Source of the DNA: Toxoplasma gondii ME49
Lineage: Eukaryota; Apicomplexa; Conoidasida; Eucoccidiorida; Sarcocystidae
Assembly: GCF_000006565.2 (NCBI RefSeq)
Contig: NC_031467.1
Span: 806,001 to 870,000 of the forward strand
DNA: 64,000 bases
Direction of reading: 5' to 3'
Shown: positions 54,303-64,000 of the stretch, one piece after another
Numbering within the stretch: the stretch's first letter is position 1
How the letters are laid out: the number at the start of each line of letters is the position of its first letter
Translations under genes and position numbers: made by a program
Notes under the pieces: generated by a model
Database searches by the model: none
Seen by the model: only the letters and a program-made list of their open reading frames with translations
Told to the model about the DNA's origin: nothing

Positions 54303-57300
54303 ATGCAATTCCACAGGCAGGCCTTGCCGCCCTCGCTGGCCGCGTCTTCTCTCCTTCCTCGCTCTTCCCTGTCTGTTCGTCTCCTCTCCCAGATCTACGA
54401 GGACACTCTGGGCGAAGCGTATGGACTGGAGACTCCCTTCTCGTCGTCCTCGTCGCTCTCCTCGAAACCTTCCTACCGGCCTCTGCTCTACGCAGACTAT
54501 GCCGCGAGTGGGCGAGCTCTGAAGAGCGTGGAGGAGTTTCTTCTTCTTCGCGTCCTCCCGCTCTACGGCAACACACACACGCAGGAAAGTGCAACGGGGA
54601 AGCAAGCCAATCAGCTCCTCGAGGAGGTAAGCGCCGGTGCATGCGCAGGAGCAGGTCTCCAGTGAAGAACTCCGCTGCAGTTCGCGGTCTCGAATGCGCG
54701 CACTCGCGTCGCACAGGTGTCAAGTTCGCTTCGACTCTCAAGCTCACAAAGCGAGACTTCTCGACCGCTTGCATGCAGAGACTGACGCGTCGGGCGCGGG
54801 TCGCCACAGATCCAGAGAGAGAGAGTGTGAAAAACCAAGAAGGATAGACATACAGGGGCGGCTTGAGCACCCTGTAAAACTCCAGGAAGACTTTACGCTA
54901 CGGACTGGAACCGAACTGCGAAGAAGCAACGAAAGAAGTCCTTTAGAAAGTGAAGGAGCGAAACAGAGATTGCCTCGTCGCTTTGCGATATGCATACGCC
55001 TCGACACTGCACCGTGCTTGGAAACAGAGGCATTGTACAACCTCGAGTCATCCGTGCGATGACCCCACTTACGAGATGTACGGACACCGACGTCCGGATG
55101 TGGATGCCTCTCGACATTGATGGTTCTCTGTTCCTGCAGACGCGGACATCTCTCTGTGTATCCGTTCGGAATTGTGCACCTTCCATCTCAGTGTTCGGAT
55201 TCCGATCCATCCCTCAGTGTAGCAGCAGTCATTTCTGATGCATGCATGTTCGTCAAGTGTATCGACTCCCATATATGCCTATCTGTCGTTGTATATCGGT
55301 TTCTGACAATCTTCATCGAAGTGTATGCATGCCTGTATGCTTTTGCGAGGTGTGGGGTGGTGCTGTATGCGTCCCCCTGGGAGGACGCATGTTTGCAAAC
55401 ATGCAGTCGGCCGCGCGTTTCTCGCTTGAAACTGTCTACTAAAGTCGTGCCGTGTGTTTGACGCGTTGCAGGCGCGGCACATTGTGAAGATGTATTTCAA
55501 CTGCAGCCACAAAGACGCGGTGATTTTCTGTGGAGGCGGAGCGTCTGCGGCGGTGTCCAAGTTCCTGCAAATTCTGTTGCTCTCTGCGCCGCATGCAGCT
55601 TGCGCATGGGCTTCCTCGGCTGTCTGTGGAGACACTGGACGTTCGCGGTCTCGGGAACCGGTTTTCTCCTCTTCTCCTTCTTCTTCCTTTCTCTCCACTT
55701 TCTTTGCCCTCTTCGAAGAAGATCGGTGGGGAAGCTTTGTCTGTCGCGCTTGCGGGGCTCGCCTCAAAACCGCTGCACATGCACGCAGACACATGCCTGT
55801 TCACCCTCATTTCAAGTTCCTTTCTCCAGTTTCCTCTTCTTCTTCCTCTTCTTCCTCTTCTTCCTCTTCTTCCTCTCCTTCCTCTCCTTCCTCTTCTTCT
55901 TCTAATGTGCCTGCGGGTGTTTGCTGTTCGTCTCGGAGTCCTCTTGCTGCTTCGGAGGTTCCTGAGGGAGAAGCACTGCGTGGAGGGGAGAAGAGGCGCG
56001 CGCGCGTCCACTTGCGCATCCACTTCTTCGTAGATCCCTGCTGTCACCATTCTTCCTTTCTCCCCTTCAAGGAGTTAGCCACTGCGTCTGGTCTCGCCTC
56101 AGCTTCTTCGCTGCAGGCGTCGAGCGACAGTTCGGTGACAGGGTGTTTTCCAGAAAAAGAGCAAACGATTTCTACCGAGTGTGCAGAGGGACGTTATTCG
56201 TACCGCGGTGCAGCGGAGAGGCCGCAGGGGCGCCAAACCACGGAGACAGCAGGGACATTTCGGGAGACACCGGAGCCTCCGGTAGACATGCACTTTTTCT
56301 TCTCTTTCTTCGACCTCGACATGCGTACGGCGACGCTCGCGCCTCTCTCCGTTTTGGAGAAACTGAGAGAAGAAGAACAGGTCTGCGCACGGTTGAACGA
56401 TGCATGCAGAGAACGCGACTCAACGAGCGCGACGACAGCCAAACAGAACCATAGCGACATTGACGGGAAGAGGAGACACGAAGACATCTACGTCTCTCTC
56501 CCGGTCTGCATCTTCTCCGCCGCCTCCAATGTCACTGGCCTCATCAGCCCCACTCTCCCGTCTTCTTCTCCTTCTTCCTCTTCTTCTCCTTCTTTCGCTT
56601 CTTCTCCTTCTTTCGCTTTTTCCCCTTTTTCCGCTTCTTCCTTGAGCGATCGCTCGAAGCTTTCGATGGCTCAACTGAATCGGATCGTTCACCACTTTGG
56701 CGGTGTGTCTTGTTGGGACTTCGCGGGGGCGGCTTCGCACATCGGCGCGGACGTCAACTGGGCCGGCGGAGGCGGGAGGCTGAGACTTCCGGTGGACGGA
56801 GGCCGAGTTGCCGGAGGCCGCGAGGGAGTCGAGACAGGCCGCTGTGAACTCCAGACGAGAGAACACAAGCTTTGCGTGGAAATCGACGAGCAAGGCGCTG
56901 GCGCAGATGTCGTCTTCTTCTCGCCGCACAAACTCCTTGGCGGACCTGGAAGTTGCGGTGAGTGCCTCAAGGCAGGAGATGCGGGCGCCTTCGTTTGGAT
57001 TCGAACGCCGCCGTGGGTCGCGTTGCAGAAGGCTTTGCTTGCACCGTGACCTGCGTTCCTTGTGCGCGGCCTCTCCGTTAATTGACTGCAGAGCTGTTCT
57101 CTCGGGGGACGGCATGCACCCGGAAACCTCCCCACTGTTTTTGCCCGACCTCATGTCAGCTCAGCACCTGTGAGAGGACGCGCGCCTTGTCCGGATTCTC
57201 GTTGCGCTGTAGCTCCACTTGTCCGTCGACGACTGAGTACACCTCTATTCATCATATCTGAACGTCTGTTTCTGCCTGCATAAACGCACACCTAAGTTGC

Positions 57301-60300
57301 GCAGTCGAGACATCCATCTCGATGTGCAGATGCAGGGACGCGTAAACGTCCATACGCATCTCCACATGTTGGCACTTCTATCGACGTGTGCATCTTGAAC
57401 GGGATCCGTTCATGTCTTCATCCACTCTCTCAAGTGGATATGCGGGGAACTGCGTTGGTTGCTCCCGCTTGTTTTCGCGTTTGACGCGTCTGTCCAGCGA
57501 GGCGCGCCCGCCAGAAGCGCAGGCCAGTTGGGCCGTGTCAGACTGTCCTCCTTTCGTCCTGCCGGTGTTTTCAGCATTTCTAAATTCCGGCGTCTCTGTG
57601 TCCTTCTCGCCGGCGCGCATTCCTTTGTTCCGGAGTGGGCGCAAGTCTGTCTCTGCGTTCCTCGTCCACCTTTGCCCTCGCTTTCTTTCTCTTCCTGCGG
57701 CTCGAACAGGTGTGCTTCTGTTGAAGAAGCAGCTGCTTCTCTCCGACCTGCCGGCGCACCCTGGAGGCGGCTCCGTGTACCTGGTGTCTGGACACAAGGC
57801 GGCTGTTTACACACTCGACCGGAGCGAGCACCGGGAAGAAGCCGGGAGTCCGAACCTGCTGGCAATCGTGCGAGCAGCGGCCGCGATTCGCGTTCTCCAG
57901 CAACTCCCGATGGACCTCGTGAGGACTCGCGAGGAACTCTGGACACAGAAGTTGCTTCACAGACTCAGTTCGCACCCCAGGTACGGCTGTCCGAGAAGAA
58001 AGAGAGCCTGCAGGGAGACGAACGCCTCTCTCGCAGGTGTTTACCTTTTCTTCCAAGTGAGTGCACTCCCTGCACCTTCTTCCAGGACTCGGTTCGTCGC
58101 AGTTTTCGTGGGTAGAAACATGCTGCCGCTCAGTGGCGCGCTGTAGACAAGTGAACGAAGGATCTGTCGATAGCCGGAGAGACGAACGAACGGAAAAAAA
58201 CGCGATAGGGACGGCCCAAGTCTCTTGAAAGGTTTGCAGCTGGTGACAACTGGACGCTTTTTCCACGTGGAAACGGTGCAAGAGGTGTGCCCTGTTCGCA
58301 CAGCTGGTGTGGAGCTACCGCAGACCACTGACGGTGGTGGTGAGATACAGTCCTGACCTCGCTTCGATTTGCAAATCGCATTTGGCATCGTAAACGTAGC
58401 ATGCAAACGCTCGTTTTCCAAATAGACGCTGTGGACACCACCTGTGCGCCCAGTGCGCAGGGTTCGTCCGTCAACGAAAGGACGCGTTTTCAATTTAGAA
58501 GAAGAAGAGGCTCGAACGTGCACTTTGACCGAAGCACAGACTGCCCAGTATCCGCAAAACCATGGGGTTTTGCGTGGTTTCTTCTTTTCCAGATTCCGAG
58601 TACTCTCGCATCGAAAATCAAACTCATTCACCGTTCTGTCTCGAGCAGCGACTCCTGTGTCCACGTAGCCTCTCTCACATTCGTGATGGGTTTCTCATCT
58701 CGCACCCTGGTGCTTTCAATACGCGTAGTTCGGCTCCTGGCCTTCGAGTCGACGAAAACGAGCGTTCATGTTGTGTCGCCCCTCTGCGCATCTCGCACGA
58801 ACTTCCCCGTCCGTTGCCCCCGGGAAACTCGTGAGATTCGTCCAGGCTGCAGGCTCAGCAGCTGCTGCGCTTTTTCTTGCTCTTCTCAGAATTCAGATCG
58901 TCGGCGCTCTCCACCCTCGTGTCGGAATCGTCTCGCTGCTGTTTCGATACGGCAACGCGAATCACCCCACTGAACCGACTCACGCTCACACACCGACCGA
59001 CTGTCGCTGCCTGCGGCGAAACTACGCCTTTGGCGGCGGGCTGTATCTACATCAAAACTTCGTCGTGGCGCTGCTGAACGACTTGTTCGGAATCCAAGTC
59101 CGCGGTGGGTGTCTCTGCGCCTCGCCGTACACCTCTTTCCTGCTGTCGATAGACCCCAAGTTGCTGGAGACGATCGAGGCGATGCTCTTGGAGACCGGCC
59201 AGGACGTATTTCGGCCAGGCGTCGTCCGCGTGAGTCTACACGGTCTCATGCGCACCGAGGAATTGGACAAGCTCTCTGCAGCGCTTCTCTGGGTCGCCTC
59301 GAACGGCTGGAAGCTCATGCCTAGGTACGCACAACTTCGTAGCGGAGACTCGCGGCAAAGCCGTCGATTCTCTCTTCTCTTTCCCTGTGGCAGAGTAGCA
59401 GCCAAAGGTGACGTCTTGCGTTTGTGCGAGCAAACGTTTTTAAAAGCGTCTGGGGCTTCCCGTCTCGTCACATCTGTGGACCTCGTGCTTCCTTGCACGT
59501 CATATACGCGTCCCGTTCGCTGTTTTTGTGTCTGGCTGTTTTCGAGAATCGTCCGTCTCCCTCTCTCTCTCTCGGTTTCCGTCTCTCCGCGGAGCTTTCT
59601 CCCTTCCTTCTGTGCTCGATCCGTCTCTTGGTCTCTCTTCCTCTCTGTCTGTCTCTCCATCCTTCTCTCTTTCCTGTGTCTTCTGGGGTCCCCTCCGTCG
59701 GTTTTGCTCTCTTCCCCACCTTTTCTTTTTCTCTCTGCGTGTCTCCCCTCCGTCTTCCTCTCTCTCTTTCTCTCGTTCTCTCTTTCCCTGTGTGTGTTCT
59801 CCAAACGTTGCTGTCCGTCTTCCCCGCTCTTGTGCCTATCCGTATCTCGCCGCCTTTCTCTCGTATTCGTTTTCTTCTCTCAGGTACGAGGTGACGCCCG
59901 AGTCCGGACAGTGGCGAGTCAAGGGATGGGCCGGCCGCCGCGAGGAGGCTGTGCGTACGTGGATTTCTGAAGCCTCGCTTCTTCCTCAAGGCGACAGTGA
60001 AGAGAAGGGAGACCGGACGAAGAACTCAACGGTGTTTGAAGGGACCATTGCGCGGTGCAACGAAACCATTGAGGAGATGTTGAATTTTGCGAATCGAGTC
60101 TTGTCTTCTCATCTCTCGCACTTCCACGCCTCCGCGGCGCCTTCCTTTCACCTTCTCCACTTGCCTCCCCAGAACTCGAGCATGTCCCCCCCACTCGGAG
60201 AAAAGAGATTCTCAGCAGCGACCGCGCCGCTGCAGCACGCACCGCCCGGCCCTGCTCCTCCCAGAGGAGACAGAGGAGACTCGCGAGACAGCGGAGGTTC

Positions 60301-63300
60301 CCGAGGTTGCGAAGGAGACTCTGGAGAAGCCAGCAGAGACAGCGAAGAGAGCAGAGAACAGCTGACGACTCTGGGCGAAGAACTTCTCCACAGCTCTTCG
60401 TCGCCTGCCTGGAAGCCGGCTGCGTCCGCCGCGGAGACAGCGGCGACTCTAGTCTGGTTCGCTCTCCCTGCAGATGCAGCCTATTCCATTTCTCTGTGGT
60501 CTCGAGCGGGCGGGAGCCGCGAGACTGACGTACGTGAGATCTCCACTTCCGAGGTTTCACAGATCCTCGACGCTCCACACGCTCTGTCTCCCGAGGCCTT
60601 GCCTTTCGACCGCGAACTCGCGGACCTCTCGCCCCGAGTCTCCGCCTCGGCGATCCGCTGGCTCCCGGGAGTCTCTGGCGAGACGCGTACGTCGAACGCC
60701 GATGGCAAAGCCGAGAAAGGTTCTGACGGCAAGATCCCAGCACTGCAGAGAGCAGAGCACTCCTGCTTCCAGCTGCGTCTCTTCACCGGCGCGAACTGCT
60801 GCTCGTGCTGGTCGCATTCAGACGAGGCGCGGCTGAGGGCAGTGGAGGACGGCCAAGAGGCGCAGGGCGACGCTGCAGAGGTTGCGCATGCAGAAAAGAA
60901 ACAGGAGAGCGACACAGTTGAAGAAGGCGACTGGCTACTTGTGTCGGAGAAAACGGAGAACGCGCAGACGGACGGACGGACTGTAGACACTCCTGAGACT
61001 TCCGCCGCCGCCGCACAAGTCGATGACCTCAGGCGGCAGGTTGCGGCTCTCCGAGAGGCGCTGGAACGCGAGAGAGAGAAGAGCGAGAGACTCCGAGAAA
61101 AGCGAGAATACACGGGGAAGAAAGCGAACTCAAACGCGAAACGCGGAGGCCGTGCTGCTCTTGAAACAGAAACGCACGAAAACATTCACAAGACTGCAGA
61201 CTCCACACAAGAAGCAAACGCATGTTCCAAAACCTCCCGTTCTTCTTTTTCTCCTTCTTCGCCTTCTTGTTCATCTTCTCCACCTTCTTCTTCGCCTTCT
61301 TGTTCATCTTCTCCACCTTCGTCTTCTCCTTCTCCGGCGAGGAGTTTTCTTCCGATTCTCCAGATTCCGCGGACGCTGCGGCGGACTGTGGGCGAGGCGA
61401 TTCGGAGCTTCGACATGATTCGCGACGGCGACCGCCTTTTGGTGGGCGTCAGTGGCGGAAAAGATTCGCTCACGCTTCTGCATGTCCTCCGAGACCTCAG
61501 GCGACGCGCGCCGATTCACTTTTCTCTCGCGGCCGCAACTGTCGACCCGGTGACGCCGGAGTTCTGCCCGCAACCGCTGATCAAGTACATGGAGGACTTA
61601 GGTAGGCGCGATGACAGAACGGCCGCGCTCCCGACGCGGAGGCTCGACAGAGGAAACCACGTTGGAAGCGGCTGAGGGCAGAGCAAAGGAGGCATCCGAG
61701 GACCGGGAGAGGAAGAGGGGGCGCAGGAGGTATTTGACGACGGGGCATGATGAGAAACAGGATGTCCGAACAAGAAAGACGTTCAGGAGATATAGGAAGC
61801 GGTCAAGCAAGGCGAGGGAAACGAACCGAGGAACAAACCCAGTAAAAAAGACAGAAACTATCTCGAAACAAAAACTGGAGGAAACAGCAAAAATACTCAA
61901 AGTCCTAGAGCAGTCAGATCTGGTGCACGGTTTACCGAGACCGTGTTCGAAGCGTCTGGTTTGCGGAAGCGTTGGCCCTCAAGTATCCTGAACTTCTCTG
62001 CGGGCGTTTTTCTCGAATTCGTTTGTACATCTGCAAATGTTTCTGATTTGAGGACCCGGCTAGAAAGACGACTCGAATCGAGTGACCTGCGACTCTGGCT
62101 TCCTCCAGAGTGCCGCACAAAAGCAAGTCCGCTTCAGAATGCTTCCTTTCAAAGTGGAGTTGAGGCACCTGACTGTATCTTTCTTTTCTCCGTCTCTGCT
62201 GTTCAGGCATTCGATACCACTACCTTCGATTGCCAATCATGGCCCTCGCTAAGGAGCGCATGCAGCGACAGTCCATCTGTGCCTTCTGTTCTCGCCTGAA
62301 GCGCGGCCTTCTCTACTCCTGCATGCGCAAAGTAAGGATGGAGAGACTTCACGCGACAGCGTACGACTGTTGCCGAATTTCATTCTTTTACTGCTCCTCA
62401 CTTTTCGCAAGTGTCTGAGAGTCCTCGGCGAGAGGCGAGGTGCTGCGCCTTCCCAGAACAAGGCTGCATGCTCGCGGGGAGGCCTCGAGGTTTTGAACGT
62501 GGAAACGGATCCGGTTCAATTGAGGCAATCTTTGCATGTGTCTGAGACAAGGCTTGTCGCGAGACAAACGCAGTTACTTCAGAACTCTGTTCGATGTGCC
62601 TACGGAGGACTTGAACGCTTGCAGGGACGCTCGCCGGTAGTACGAACAGAAGAAAGAAATACACGCGAGGCTTTGTGGGTGGATGCCTGTTTTTCTTCCA
62701 ACGAAGAAAAAAGCGAGAAAAGATCGGTCGTCAGTGCGCAGTCGATGTAGTGGCTATGCGAGTGCTGTTTCGCACGAGTCAAGTCGAGCGTCTGCATTCG
62801 AATCTATTTGAGAGAGGTGCGTCTGCGGCATGTCTTTTTTCTGCGAAGGAAGGCTCGAGTTCCTTCGTGCGAGAAGCAGAGTTTCTCTCAAGCGTTTCTG
62901 ATGTATTCAAAGTCCAGTGAAAAAACGTCAACAGTTTGGAGTCTCAAGCCTCTGAAGCAACTGTCAAGAGGCGAGAGTCGACTCCGTGTCTTCGACCTGA
63001 CGGGGCTCGTGGAGTTCATTCGACAGAAGCGTTGTCCTTGTGTCTCAGCACGGATACAATGTCCTTGTTCTCGGGCAACATCTCGACGATGCATGCGAAT
63101 CGTTCCTCATGAGCGCCTTTCACAATGGAGTGTTGAACACCATGAAGGTGAGTTCGCGTCGGTTTGGAAGGAGTCGAGACACAGGAATTGAACGCTTTCT
63201 GTTGAAAGTAAATTCGCACCGTGACGATAAACGCTTCTTTCTCAACGCATATCTTCTCCATCTTGCTCGTGATCTTTTCGACGCGGCTTGTCACTGCACG

Positions 63301-63994
63301 ATCCCCTTCGCGGTTGCTCTCCACCGGATCTGTTTGCTAGCCTTTCTCTGCTCCCTCGTAATGTCTGTGGCGACTTTTGCTGCCTCCTCAGTTGCTCAGT
63401 TGAAGTTGAGAACTCCCCCGGCTGGAGCTTCGCTCCAAACGTAGCTGAGCAACGAGCCTGACTCAGAGACTTTAGCGCGAACGCTGGATGTCCAGTTGGA
63501 GATCAGTGCGTTTTCGACGTGACTGGAACCTCGCTAGTCTTTCTCTCGGCATCCACCTCAAAACCCTCGCCTCGTCGCTGTTTGAAGGACTCAACTCTTT
63601 TGCCCGTTCGTTCCTCTCTAAAGGCGTCTCAGAGTCCTCGGCGAGCGATCGACGAGTGCATGCTCTGGTCTTCCTCCCTCACCAAGCCTGTCAGGTGCCT
63701 GAAAGAGAGGGCAGAGCGAGAACGCGACAGGGAAGACAAGAGTGAGGGTGGATCGGAGAACAAGAAGAGAGAGAAAAGAGCGGAGGAGAACATGGTGGAA
63801 GTGCCTTTCCATCCTCGTTGTTTCTTCCTACATCGGTTCGTTTTCAGGGCCATTACGTCAACGCAGATGGAGATCTTCGCATTTGTCGTCCTCTCATCAC
63901 AACGCGCGAGAAAGAAACAGCAGAATTCGCTGCAAGGCATCGCCTGCCTGTCATTGCAGATAACTGCCCTGCGTGCTTCGCCGCGCCGAAGGAA
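54303..63994 (+). CDS. Class V aminotransferase (NifS-like) fused to TtcA-type PP-loop tRNA thiolase (3' partial)
   Basis: Exons: 54303-54626, 55472-56957, 57710-57980, 58890-59324, 59884-61601, 62207-62331, 63049-63147, 63848-63994, then a GTAAGG donor, so the gene runs on. The 4605 bases give 1535 codons, all phases agreeing. Residues 70-850 form a PLP enzyme: LYADYAASGRALKSVEEF, HTQESATGKQ, CHHSSFLPF, FSAASNVTGL, CWDFAGAASH, the PLP lysine in SPHKLLGGPGS (Lys595) and RGGCLCASPY (Cys768/770). Residues 1362-1367 are the PP-loop SGGKDS; CAFCSRLKRGLLY (Cys1436/1439) and DNCPACF resemble TtcA [4Fe-4S] ligands, and GQHLDDACESFLMS is conserved. Known: TtcA makes 2-thiocytidine at tRNA position 32, using sulfur from a cysteine desulfurase. 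Inference: both steps in one chain. The Arg/Ser/Leu-rich N-terminus may be a transit peptide. Confidence 0.9.
55472..59324 (+). other. Aminotransferase class V core of the fusion protein, with large low-complexity inserts
   Basis: Four exons including 54303-54626 hold the PLP domain. Conserved blocks are separated by Ser-rich inserts: about 90 codons from 55640 to 56000 and about 170 codons from 56080 to 56500, plus a short HPTEPTHAHTPTD insert just before the GGGLYLHQNFVVALLNDLFG block. The inserts are encoded partly by (TCTTCC)n-type microsatellites (55823-55905, 56561-56645). All expected PLP and active-site cysteine positions are present, so an active enzyme is likely. Confidence 0.85.
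55823..55905 (+). repeat. Coding (TCTTCC)n-like microsatellite, polyserine
   Basis: Near-perfect TCTTCC/TCTCCT repeats encode a Ser run with occasional Pro inside the aminotransferase part. Such tracts often vary in length between strains. Confidence 0.85.
59884..61601 (+). other. Fusion exon: aminotransferase end, linker and PP-loop in one exon
   Basis: The exon starts with YEVTPESGQWR, the final conserved block of the aminotransferase. It then runs for roughly 480 residues through a Glu/Ser-rich linker, WFALPADAAYSISLW, a Cys-containing stretch (LFTGANCCSCW), a predicted coiled coil (about 61020-61120) and a Ser/Pro/Cys tandem repeat. It ends with GEAIRSFDMIRDGD and SGGKDSLTLLHVLRDL. There is no stop and no need for an intron, which proves the two enzymes share one transcript frame. 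Confidence 0.92.
61230..61335 (+). repeat. Coding tandem repeat, about 30-33 bp unit, in the linker
   Basis: Two adjacent, almost identical copies of a unit reading CCTTCTTGTTCATCTTCTCC with TTC-rich ends encode repeated Ser/Pro/Cys peptides (SPSCSSSPPSS) just before the PP-loop domain. The copies differ by one TTC codon. Confidence 0.75.
62207..63994 (+). other. TtcA-like catalytic part of the fusion protein
   Basis: Three exons continue from the PP-loop: 62207-62331 (YHYLRLPIMALAKERMQRQ, CAFC), 63049-63147 (YNVLVLGQHLDDACESF) and 63848-63994 (GDLRICRPLITTREKETAEF, DNCPACFAAPKE). The 0.7 kb introns between them carry no domain. The sequence ends at a splice donor six bases before the window end; the family usually ends soon after this point. 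Confidence 0.88.
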
Positions 63995-64000
63995 GTAAGG

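Follow-up and report, generated by a model that had tools for sequence, protein, structure and literature searches.

In Toxoplasma gondii a PLP enzyme of the SufS/NifS class is genuinely fused to a PP-loop enzyme of the TtcA class. The fusion is encoded by one ten-exon gene on the + strand, which runs from position 54303 of the window (the whole stretch of 64,000 nucleotides that was analysed) to the window equivalent of 65923. In its 1701-aa product a SufS-type class-V PLP domain precedes a TtcA-type PP-loop domain. The fusion is spread across many eukaryotic groups and is not a coccidian or chromerid speciality. Known tRNA thiolases borrow their sulfur from a shared desulfurase. We consider it probable that the fusion is instead a tRNA thiolation enzyme of cytosol and nucleus that is bifunctional and supplies its own sulfur, most likely making 2-thiocytidine at position 32 (s2C32) in nuclear-encoded tRNA. 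The basis for this reading in our analysis is one gene with conserved motifs, a SufS fold in a homologue and the recurrence of the fusion in many groups of eukaryotes, together with PLP halves that form one clan and a single TtcA-type locus found in the T. gondii genome; from these we infer the desulfurase activity, the cluster, the sulfur hand-over and the tRNA target.

Structure of the gene

Eight exons lie within the window and two past its edge (L009), with GT-AG introns; all features below are on the + strand. The PLP domain starts in exon 1 (54303..54626, residues 1-108), which has a YADYAASGR motif and an MQF start shared with Besnoitia and Cystoisospora. It continues through exon 2 (55472..56957, residues 109-603), which matches PF00266 and holds low-complexity inserts, the His motif CHHSS and the PLP lysine, and then through exon 3 (57710..57980, residues 604-693) and exon 4 (58890..59324, residues 694-838), where the later PLP-enzyme part with the CxC loop is found. 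Exon 5 (59884..61601, residues 839-1411) opens with the last part of the PLP enzyme, continues through a WFALP linker module and a low-complexity stretch, and runs into the TtcA domain to a point beyond its PP-loop. The TtcA domain is carried on by exon 6 (62207..62331, residues 1412-1453, with C1436-A-F-C1439), exon 7 (63049..63147, residues 1454-1486, with a GQHLDD motif) and exon 8 (63848..63994, residues 1487-1535, with C1526-P-A-C1529). Beyond the edge of the window come exon 9 (equivalents 64353-64424) and exon 10 (65495-65923), whose last position is that of the stop.

The first-pass annotation had assigned the PLP-enzyme and TtcA motifs to one phase-consistent chain, and all of those it named were located there, with starts at residues 592 (SPHKLLGGPGS), 765 (RGGCLCASPY), 1362 (SGGKDS), 1436 (CAFC) and 1524 (DNCPAC). 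It was also right to place the domain junction within a single exon: the limits of exon 59884-61601 are exact and its frame stays open for 743 codons. The gene end that it gave, 63994, is superseded by the two further exons. Both PF00266 (E 1.2e-25) and PF01171 (E 2.4e-16) score above their Pfam cut-offs in the 1701-aa protein, and in blastp a hit to the protein of Besnoitia extends over residues 1-1691 of 1701 (52.8%). An assembly or gene-model artefact is ruled out, since the order of the two domains, whose combination in one protein the annotation proposed to look for across coccidia and chromerids, is kept in Besnoitia, Cystoisospora, Eimeria and the chromerids, and far beyond.

The same T. 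gondii gene has been published as TgTtcA (TGGT1_294380), in which a PP-loop domain occupies 1353-1528 and two stretches, 62-149 and 571-719, are assigned to the class-V aminotransferases (PMC9420914); our gene model is consistent with the printed limits 571-719 and 1353-1528. The annotation's suggestion that no such fusion had been described does not stand, as this 2022 paper lists both domains in the same protein. In the portions of the paper drawn on here, the PLP half is not read as a desulfurase, the spread of the fusion goes unmentioned, and neither a TtcA deletion nor a tRNA assay is reported (PMC9420914). We found no interpretation of the fusion or account of its spread in the openly available literature.

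Tagged TgTtcA gives a full-size band and is found in cytosol and nucleus (PMC9420914). Several smaller bands on the blot of the C-terminally tagged protein (PMC9420914) count against a self-supplied thiolase and would suit halves that work separately, after cleavage or from separate transcripts, with a fusion devoid of mechanistic meaning. We regard this as very improbable in view of the full-size band on the same blot, the one open exon that spans the junction, the retention of the fusion from alveolates to animals, and the single fused chains P0022, P0024 and P0033 from records named transcript assemblies. Predicted models of two fusion homologues, with a whole-chain pTM of 0.86-0.87, also argue against separate halves, although for interdomain placement the argument is indirect.

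The PLP half

With the group II cysteine desulfurases (SufS/NFS2 and CsdA) the PLP half has in common the whole fold, the His, the PLP Lys, the loop Cys and the Arg. Alignment of the homologue P0096 to SufS makes H300 (codons of H300-H301 at 56045..56050) the counterpart of the His in SufS EHHANIVPW, K595 of the SPHK motif (56930..56932) the PLP Schiff-base lysine, and C770 (C768-L769-C770 at 59110..59118), which lies in a loop of the form R-x-G-x-x-C-A, the counterpart of the SufS catalytic Cys. R807 (59227..59229, in VVRVSL) occupies what we take to be the position of the substrate Arg of SufS-type enzymes. In the predicted model of the homologue the SufS fold extends across the whole PLP domain; this comparison covered model residues 25-546, whereas sequence comparison served for the TtcA half.

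Conservation was followed in 225 relatives, to which all unfiltered motif counts refer, and in an alignment of 118 rows. The latter was built from rows of 880-1240 aa holding SGGKDS, SxHK and GCxC (197 of 225 passed, 145 were left after thinning and 118 were used), so that the invariance of these three motifs within it is no evidence, the rows having been chosen for those residues. The H300 and R807 columns are His and Arg, respectively, in 118/118 aligned relatives. Among the unfiltered relatives, the HHS motif occurs in 207/225, the SxHK pattern around the PLP lysine in 221/225 and the GC-x-C loop in all 225 (223 by pattern, and the remaining two on inspection of their sequences).

The fusion differs from SufS/NFS2 and CsdA in having CxC for HxC in the loop and in a substituted Gln. 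At the Gln position of VDGAQ, presumably the contact to PLP O3' in desulfurases, 117 of the 118 rows have Thr, Ala, Cys, Ser or Gly and one has a gap; T. gondii has Gly (WDFAG). The SufS model TIGR01979 reaches 68.8 bits over T. gondii residues 501-854 and 75.6 to 144.8 bits in seven other fusions, all below its cut-off of 475.1. The absent Gln counts against a self-supplied thiolase, as do curated desulfurase cut-offs that are so far from reached. Both features could be explained if the PLP half were a class-V enzyme of another kind, whether a selenocysteine lyase, a cysteine lyase or an aminotransferase, and had been joined to TtcA for a reason besides sulfur feeding, and two alphaproteobacterial relatives that adjoin an Lrp/AsnC regulator would fit this as well. 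We judge it improbable.

Relative to SufS/NFS2 and CsdA, the fusion also has an extra C-terminal linker module, the fused TtcA and, in many cases, a zinc finger insert. In T. gondii the putative C2H2-like insert CRACGARLKTAAHARRHMPVH spans residues 199-219 (55742..55804). The insert of relatives comes just short of the Pfam cut-offs, at best 20.5 versus 21.2 bits for zf-met and 21.5 versus 22.6 bits for zf-C2H2_jaz; the Pfam scan reported neither match for the T. gondii protein. A pair of Cys at the C-terminus was considered as a general sulfur-carrying arm and rejected: at least two Cys fall in the last 25 residues in 61/224 proteins, versus 30 in one random draw, and C-terminal Cys are absent from most animal tails among those printed.

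The TtcA half

The PP-loop motif SGGKDS (residues 1362-1367, 61451..61468) is present in 224/225 relatives, and the C1436 and C1439 columns are both Cys in 118/118 aligned relatives. This motif and two CxxC motifs (C1436 and C1439, C1526 and C1529) align with bacterial TtcA (E. coli b1344), and three of the four Cys of the CxxC motifs are predicted to bind a [4Fe-4S] cluster. E. coli TtcA is a stand-alone protein that receives sulfur from a separate IscS, whereas the fusion belongs to a short NCPACF subgroup. The fused domain is nearer to TtcA of Thermithiobacillus, which matches the TtcA domain of P0033 at 69%, than to that of E. coli.

The TtcA equivalog NF007972 gives 212.9 bits for T. gondii, 184 to 231 bits for seven other fusions and 201 for Thermithiobacillus TtcA, all below the cut-off of 272, which weighs against the self-supplied thiolase. 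Together with the CPxC motif in 120/120 stand-alone TtcA relatives among the matches listed, where E. coli has CNLC and lacks the two preceding residues, these scores from all nine scanned proteins could mean that fused TtcA of the short NCPACF subgroup performs the same chemistry on another tRNA base or position, such as 33, and not on C32. There is a precedent in s2U33 of trypanosomatid tRNA-Trp (PMC5372739), and the review as consulted gives s2C for bacteria and archaea only (PMC5372739), a point against an s2C target in eukaryotes. We nevertheless think another target unlikely: TtcA is the best curated model for all nine proteins, by more than 100 bits over TilS, TtuA and NcsA.

Ncs6/Ctu1, NcsA and TtuA belong to the same PP-loop/[Fe-S] superfamily, and the TtcA half has matches in the solved structures of TtuA and NcsA. 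They obtain sulfur via ubiquitin-like carriers and act on U34 or U54, and the T. gondii Ncs6-like gene is a separate locus (C13, L010); a single TtcA-type locus was detected in the genome.

Distribution and origin

A search with the TtcA half returned both domains in 120/120 relatives among the matches listed, and a choanoflagellate query in 119/120 rows among those listed, query included; both searches were length-filtered and are hence biased toward fusions. Carriers include coccidia, Cryptosporidium (C. parvum, from the TtcA-half search), dinoflagellates, oomycetes, sponges and amphioxus, with sea urchins and coral added by the choanoflagellate query. Across these distant eukaryotes the Lys, His, loop Cys and Arg of the desulfurase are kept, as are the four TtcA cysteines. 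C. parvum is not known to have a plastid or a mitochondrial genome, and the presence of the gene there and in animals (amphioxus, sea urchins and coral) points to cytosolic tRNA as the substrate.

One branch of the PLP tree (support 100/98) has 37 fusions together on one side. The TtcA tree, built from 37 fusions plus 31 stand-alone rows, does not recover the fusions as a single group (eight changes, six of them forced by starred branches), because some of the stand-alone rows are interspersed with them; this is a point against the self-supplied thiolase. One clade (99/95) is formed by 14 of the stand-alone rows, of which four are named bacteria. The 17 among the fusions comprise five with the linker motif, one named alga and 11 without a name. 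The five, with this motif before the PP-loop, look like fusion pieces; among the stand-alone matches listed, 8/120 have it. The 11 unnamed rows may be stand-alone eukaryotic TtcA. The TtcA tree is compatible with a single fusion event but does not demonstrate one, and it has no bearing on the grouping of the PLP halves. The PLP-only plant protein of Turnera (P0130) was rejected as an unfused ancestor, as it groups with bacteria and not with the fusions (98, quick tree).

A bacterial operon or fusion was rejected as the origin as well, within the loci surveyed. No match to a TtcA profile, one that does pick up E. coli ttcA, the T. gondii fusion gene and its Ncs6-like gene, turned up in frames of at least 60 aa, to E 10, at the 87 PLP-half loci examined (the best 80 of 553 genome-contig loci in the survey with the PLP alignment, plus seven viral-contig loci). 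The bacterial neighbourhood thus lends a tRNA role no support. The viral-contig matches are weak (26-30%), and at two alphaproteobacterial loci (L019 and L043) the gene faces the Lrp/AsnC regulator. The separation from TtcA and this neighbour are both points against the self-supplied thiolase.

Proposed mechanism and implications

In a self-supplied thiolase, the SufS-type PLP domain would draw sulfur from L-cysteine and keep it in persulfide form at the second Cys in the CxC loop (C770). Without leaving the molecule, this sulfur would then reach the [4Fe-4S] site in the TtcA half (C1436, C1439, C1526 and perhaps C1529). There the PP-loop and ATP would activate C2 of the tRNA base, and sulfur would displace oxygen. 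The likely product is 2-thiocytidine 32 in tRNAs encoded in the nucleus, for example Arg(UCU), and C32 is present in Arg(UCU) tRNA genes.

TtcA requires its cluster (PMC5372739), and the cytosolic Fe-S proteins of T. gondii rely on a mitochondrial intermediate (PMC11481526), so the sulfur of the PLP half might build or repair the [4Fe-4S] cluster and not become the tRNA sulfur atom. This we see as distinctly improbable, given that only IscS and TtcA are tabled for s2C32 in E. coli (PMC5372739) and that the Pfam scan of the protein turned up neither an iron donor nor a scaffold part. In T. gondii a second tRNA thiolase, MnmA, also has a sulfur-relay domain, SufE, in its own chain (TGGT1_309110; PMC9420914), but SufE carries sulfur and does not act as a desulfurase, and MnmA-SufE belongs to the apicoplast and to s2U34. 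Thiolation in the cytosol draws on a sulfur species that the mitochondrion exports (PMC11481526).

A fused pair would free the thiolation step from a shared donor and place a desulfurase outside the organelles. tRNA thiolation in the eukaryotic cytosol is believed to depend on sulfur routed through mitochondrial NFS1 and on the Urm1 relay. More tentatively, and with the balance leaning against it, the fusion might be an ancient eukaryotic enzyme that makes 2-thiocytidine in nuclear-encoded tRNA with its own cytosolic and nuclear desulfurase, bypassing both; it would then have existed by the time that the alveolates, stramenopiles, excavates and animals among the carriers had diverged from one another. 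If so, thio-C32 would be an overlooked modification in eukaryotes, and the spread of the gene makes s2C in these organisms directly testable.

A single gene encodes the PLP and TtcA halves

The fusion gene lies on the plus strand of contig C1 (1,859,933 bases of the 65.3 Mb T. gondii genome; the window is C1:806001-870000), which we take to be chromosome Ia. It begins at 54303 and comprises eight exons within the window and two past it (locus L009), with GT-AG introns throughout, consistent phases and a product of 1701 aa. The coordinates of the first-pass annotation were correct except for the gene end, since the exons continue beyond 63994 to the window equivalent of 65923. Pfam places Aminotran_5 (1.2e-25) and ATP_bind_3 (2.4e-16) on the protein, each above cut-off, with computed domain limits of 578-717 and 1357-1525. 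The limits printed for TGGT1_294380 in the accessible part of PMC9420914 (571-719 and 1353-1528) bracket these values, and we therefore take the gene to be TGGT1_294380. The two domains of the T. gondii protein are thus already in print there, contrary to the earlier impression that no such fusion had been described.

The fusion is old and widespread

The fusion is old, widespread and little-noticed in eukaryotes, with a range wider than first supposed. Under a length filter of 0.55 to 1.75 times the query, which favours fusions, querying with the TtcA part yielded 506 relatives, with both Pfam domains in 120/120 among the matches listed, and a choanoflagellate protein gave 4659, with both in 119/120 (query counted); the lone exception is a PLP-only protein from a flowering plant. 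Fusions among the matches listed span alveolates (coccidia, Cryptosporidium, gregarines, chromerids, dinoflagellates, Perkinsus and one ciliate), other protists (oomycetes, a brown alga, a diplonemid, heteroloboseans, a cryptophyte and a choanoflagellate) and animals (sponges, coral, molluscs, horseshoe crab, hemichordates, sea urchins and amphioxus); these group labels follow the organism names. Several animal hits are on contigs of tens of megabases and are therefore unlikely to be stray contaminants, and both domains occur in a single chain in P0022, P0024 and P0033, relatives named as transcript assemblies. Such proteins carry the annotation 'selenocysteine lyase/cysteine desulfurase/tRNA(Ile)-lysidine synthase TilS/MesJ'. 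We found no description of the fusion as a family in the open-access literature, several of our queries being blunt; a krill transcript is annotated TtcA within a list in the accessible part of PMC3714250.

The 225 proteins pooled from both searches, with no selection, retain SxHK (221/225), HHS (207/225), the GC-x-C loop (225/225; 223 by pattern, 2 by eye), the PP-loop (224/225), the first CxxC of the TtcA half (223/225; 209 by strict pattern, 14 by eye) and NCPxC (222/225). P0001, a low-quality oomycete model from Lagenidium, has two tandem copies that keep the PP-loop and CxC without either TtcA-half CxxC motif, unlike the remaining oomycetes listed, which match the first CxxC pattern.

A C2H2 finger, possibly an RNA-binding module, is inserted in the PLP domain (window 55742-55804). 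By pattern, it recurs in 14 of 17 named alveolates, Diplonema and 7/7 rows taken for choanoflagellates, and in 0/18 animals, 0/16 oomycetes and 0/3 heteroloboseans. A third domain, thioredoxin-like and C-terminal, is present in P0096, P0099 and P0187; it might act as a reductant of the persulfide or of a CxC disulfide. Many dinoflagellate-like fusions (P0012-P0030) end, by eye, in a tail-anchor-like hydrophobic stretch followed by basic residues, and there the enzyme may be membrane-seated.

Origin of the fusion

The PLP-half tree has one branch (100/98) that parts 37 fusions from 30 bacterial stand-alone enzymes picked evenly from 80. Animals, stramenopiles and heteroloboseans each group together among the fusions, as do most alveolates with Diplonema, in a pattern much like that of the organisms; the ciliate fusion falls elsewhere, and the placement of Diplonema among alveolates suggests transfer or an ancient duplication. 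These groups recur in the TtcA tree, but with stand-alone rows intermixed: 14, including four named bacteria, form one clade (99/95), while 17 lie amid fusions (five resembling fusion pieces, one alga and 11 others). From the PLP tree alone we infer that the fusion would have arisen in a single event, of which the TtcA tree is no test.

Two bacterial PLP enzymes branch away from the alphaproteobacterial ones in the tree, one belonging to a planctomycete (45% to the ciliate query) and the other to a nitriliruptoral actinomycete (44%). A search for the linker motif WFxxP gave 3 of 80 bacterial frames; it is common only to these two, the third, FFPRP, being unlike it. Given this distribution, and given that 197/225 fusion-search rows have the motif after the CxC loop and before the PP-loop, the linker probably derives in part from a tail that the PLP enzyme already had before fusion.

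Among stand-alone relatives, a planctomycete frame (L012:3753-6791) has two cyclic-nucleotide-binding stretches preceding the PLP part (Pfam cNMP_binding 6e-28), arranged as if activity were regulated. In two alphaproteobacteria (loci L019 and L043) an Lrp/AsnC regulator faces the PLP gene, hinting at amino-acid, perhaps cysteine, breakdown. The flowering-plant model P0130 (Turnera subulata) has repeated PLP-enzyme copies without TtcA and groups with bacteria, perhaps through separate acquisition or contamination.

The TtcA half and its tRNA target

The best curated model for the TtcA half is TtcA (212.9 bits), followed by TilS (70.7). In an alignment to E. coli TtcA, every one of its four cysteines falls within the two CxxC motifs. 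Scores lie below the TtcA equivalog cut-off of 272 for the T. gondii fusion, seven other fusions and Thermithiobacillus, and the half falls in a short subgroup with NCPACF; C32 is for these reasons a target that we infer. The accessible text of PMC5372739 gives s2C for bacteria and archaea. Nuclear Arg(UCU) tRNA genes have C32 (among 30 tRNA loci examined of 63 matches), which, C32 being common, simply confirms that a substrate exists. Contig C1959 packs numerous tRNAs into about 33 kb, in keeping with an apicoplast genome. The fusion gene is kept in C. parvum, which is not known to have a plastid or a mitochondrial genome, and this points to nuclear-encoded tRNA.

Proposed mechanism and cellular role

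Cysteine would bind at the PLP lysine and its sulfur pass to C770, with the extra C768 as a possible relay or protection. The TtcA site would then receive the sulfur while the PP-loop adenylates the base, releasing thio-base and AMP. Structure predictions from two lineages (pTM 0.87 for 953 residues; 0.86 for 901) suggest that the halves adopt a single fixed arrangement. The T. gondii MnmA thiolase, which carries a SufE domain, is comparable in that a thiolase is likewise fused to a sulfur-relay domain (PMC9420914, in part).

Tagged TgTtcA is reported to localise to both cytosol and nucleus and to give a full-size band plus several smaller ones (same source). The PLP domain is near the N-terminus in most of the 225 proteins (median first-motif offset 63; pattern found in 181/225), leaving scant room for a leader. 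Separate IscS-type and SufS-type genes are present in the T. gondii genome; besides these, a further weak PF00266 match lies on contig C14, and another, on C7, resembles an aminotransferase. Self-supplied tRNA thiolation is a plausible function for the fusion and, given that NFS1 is mitochondrial and NFS2 apicoplast-localised (accessible parts of PMC11481526 and PMC8639094), this protein may be the sole putative desulfurase outside the organelles of T. gondii.
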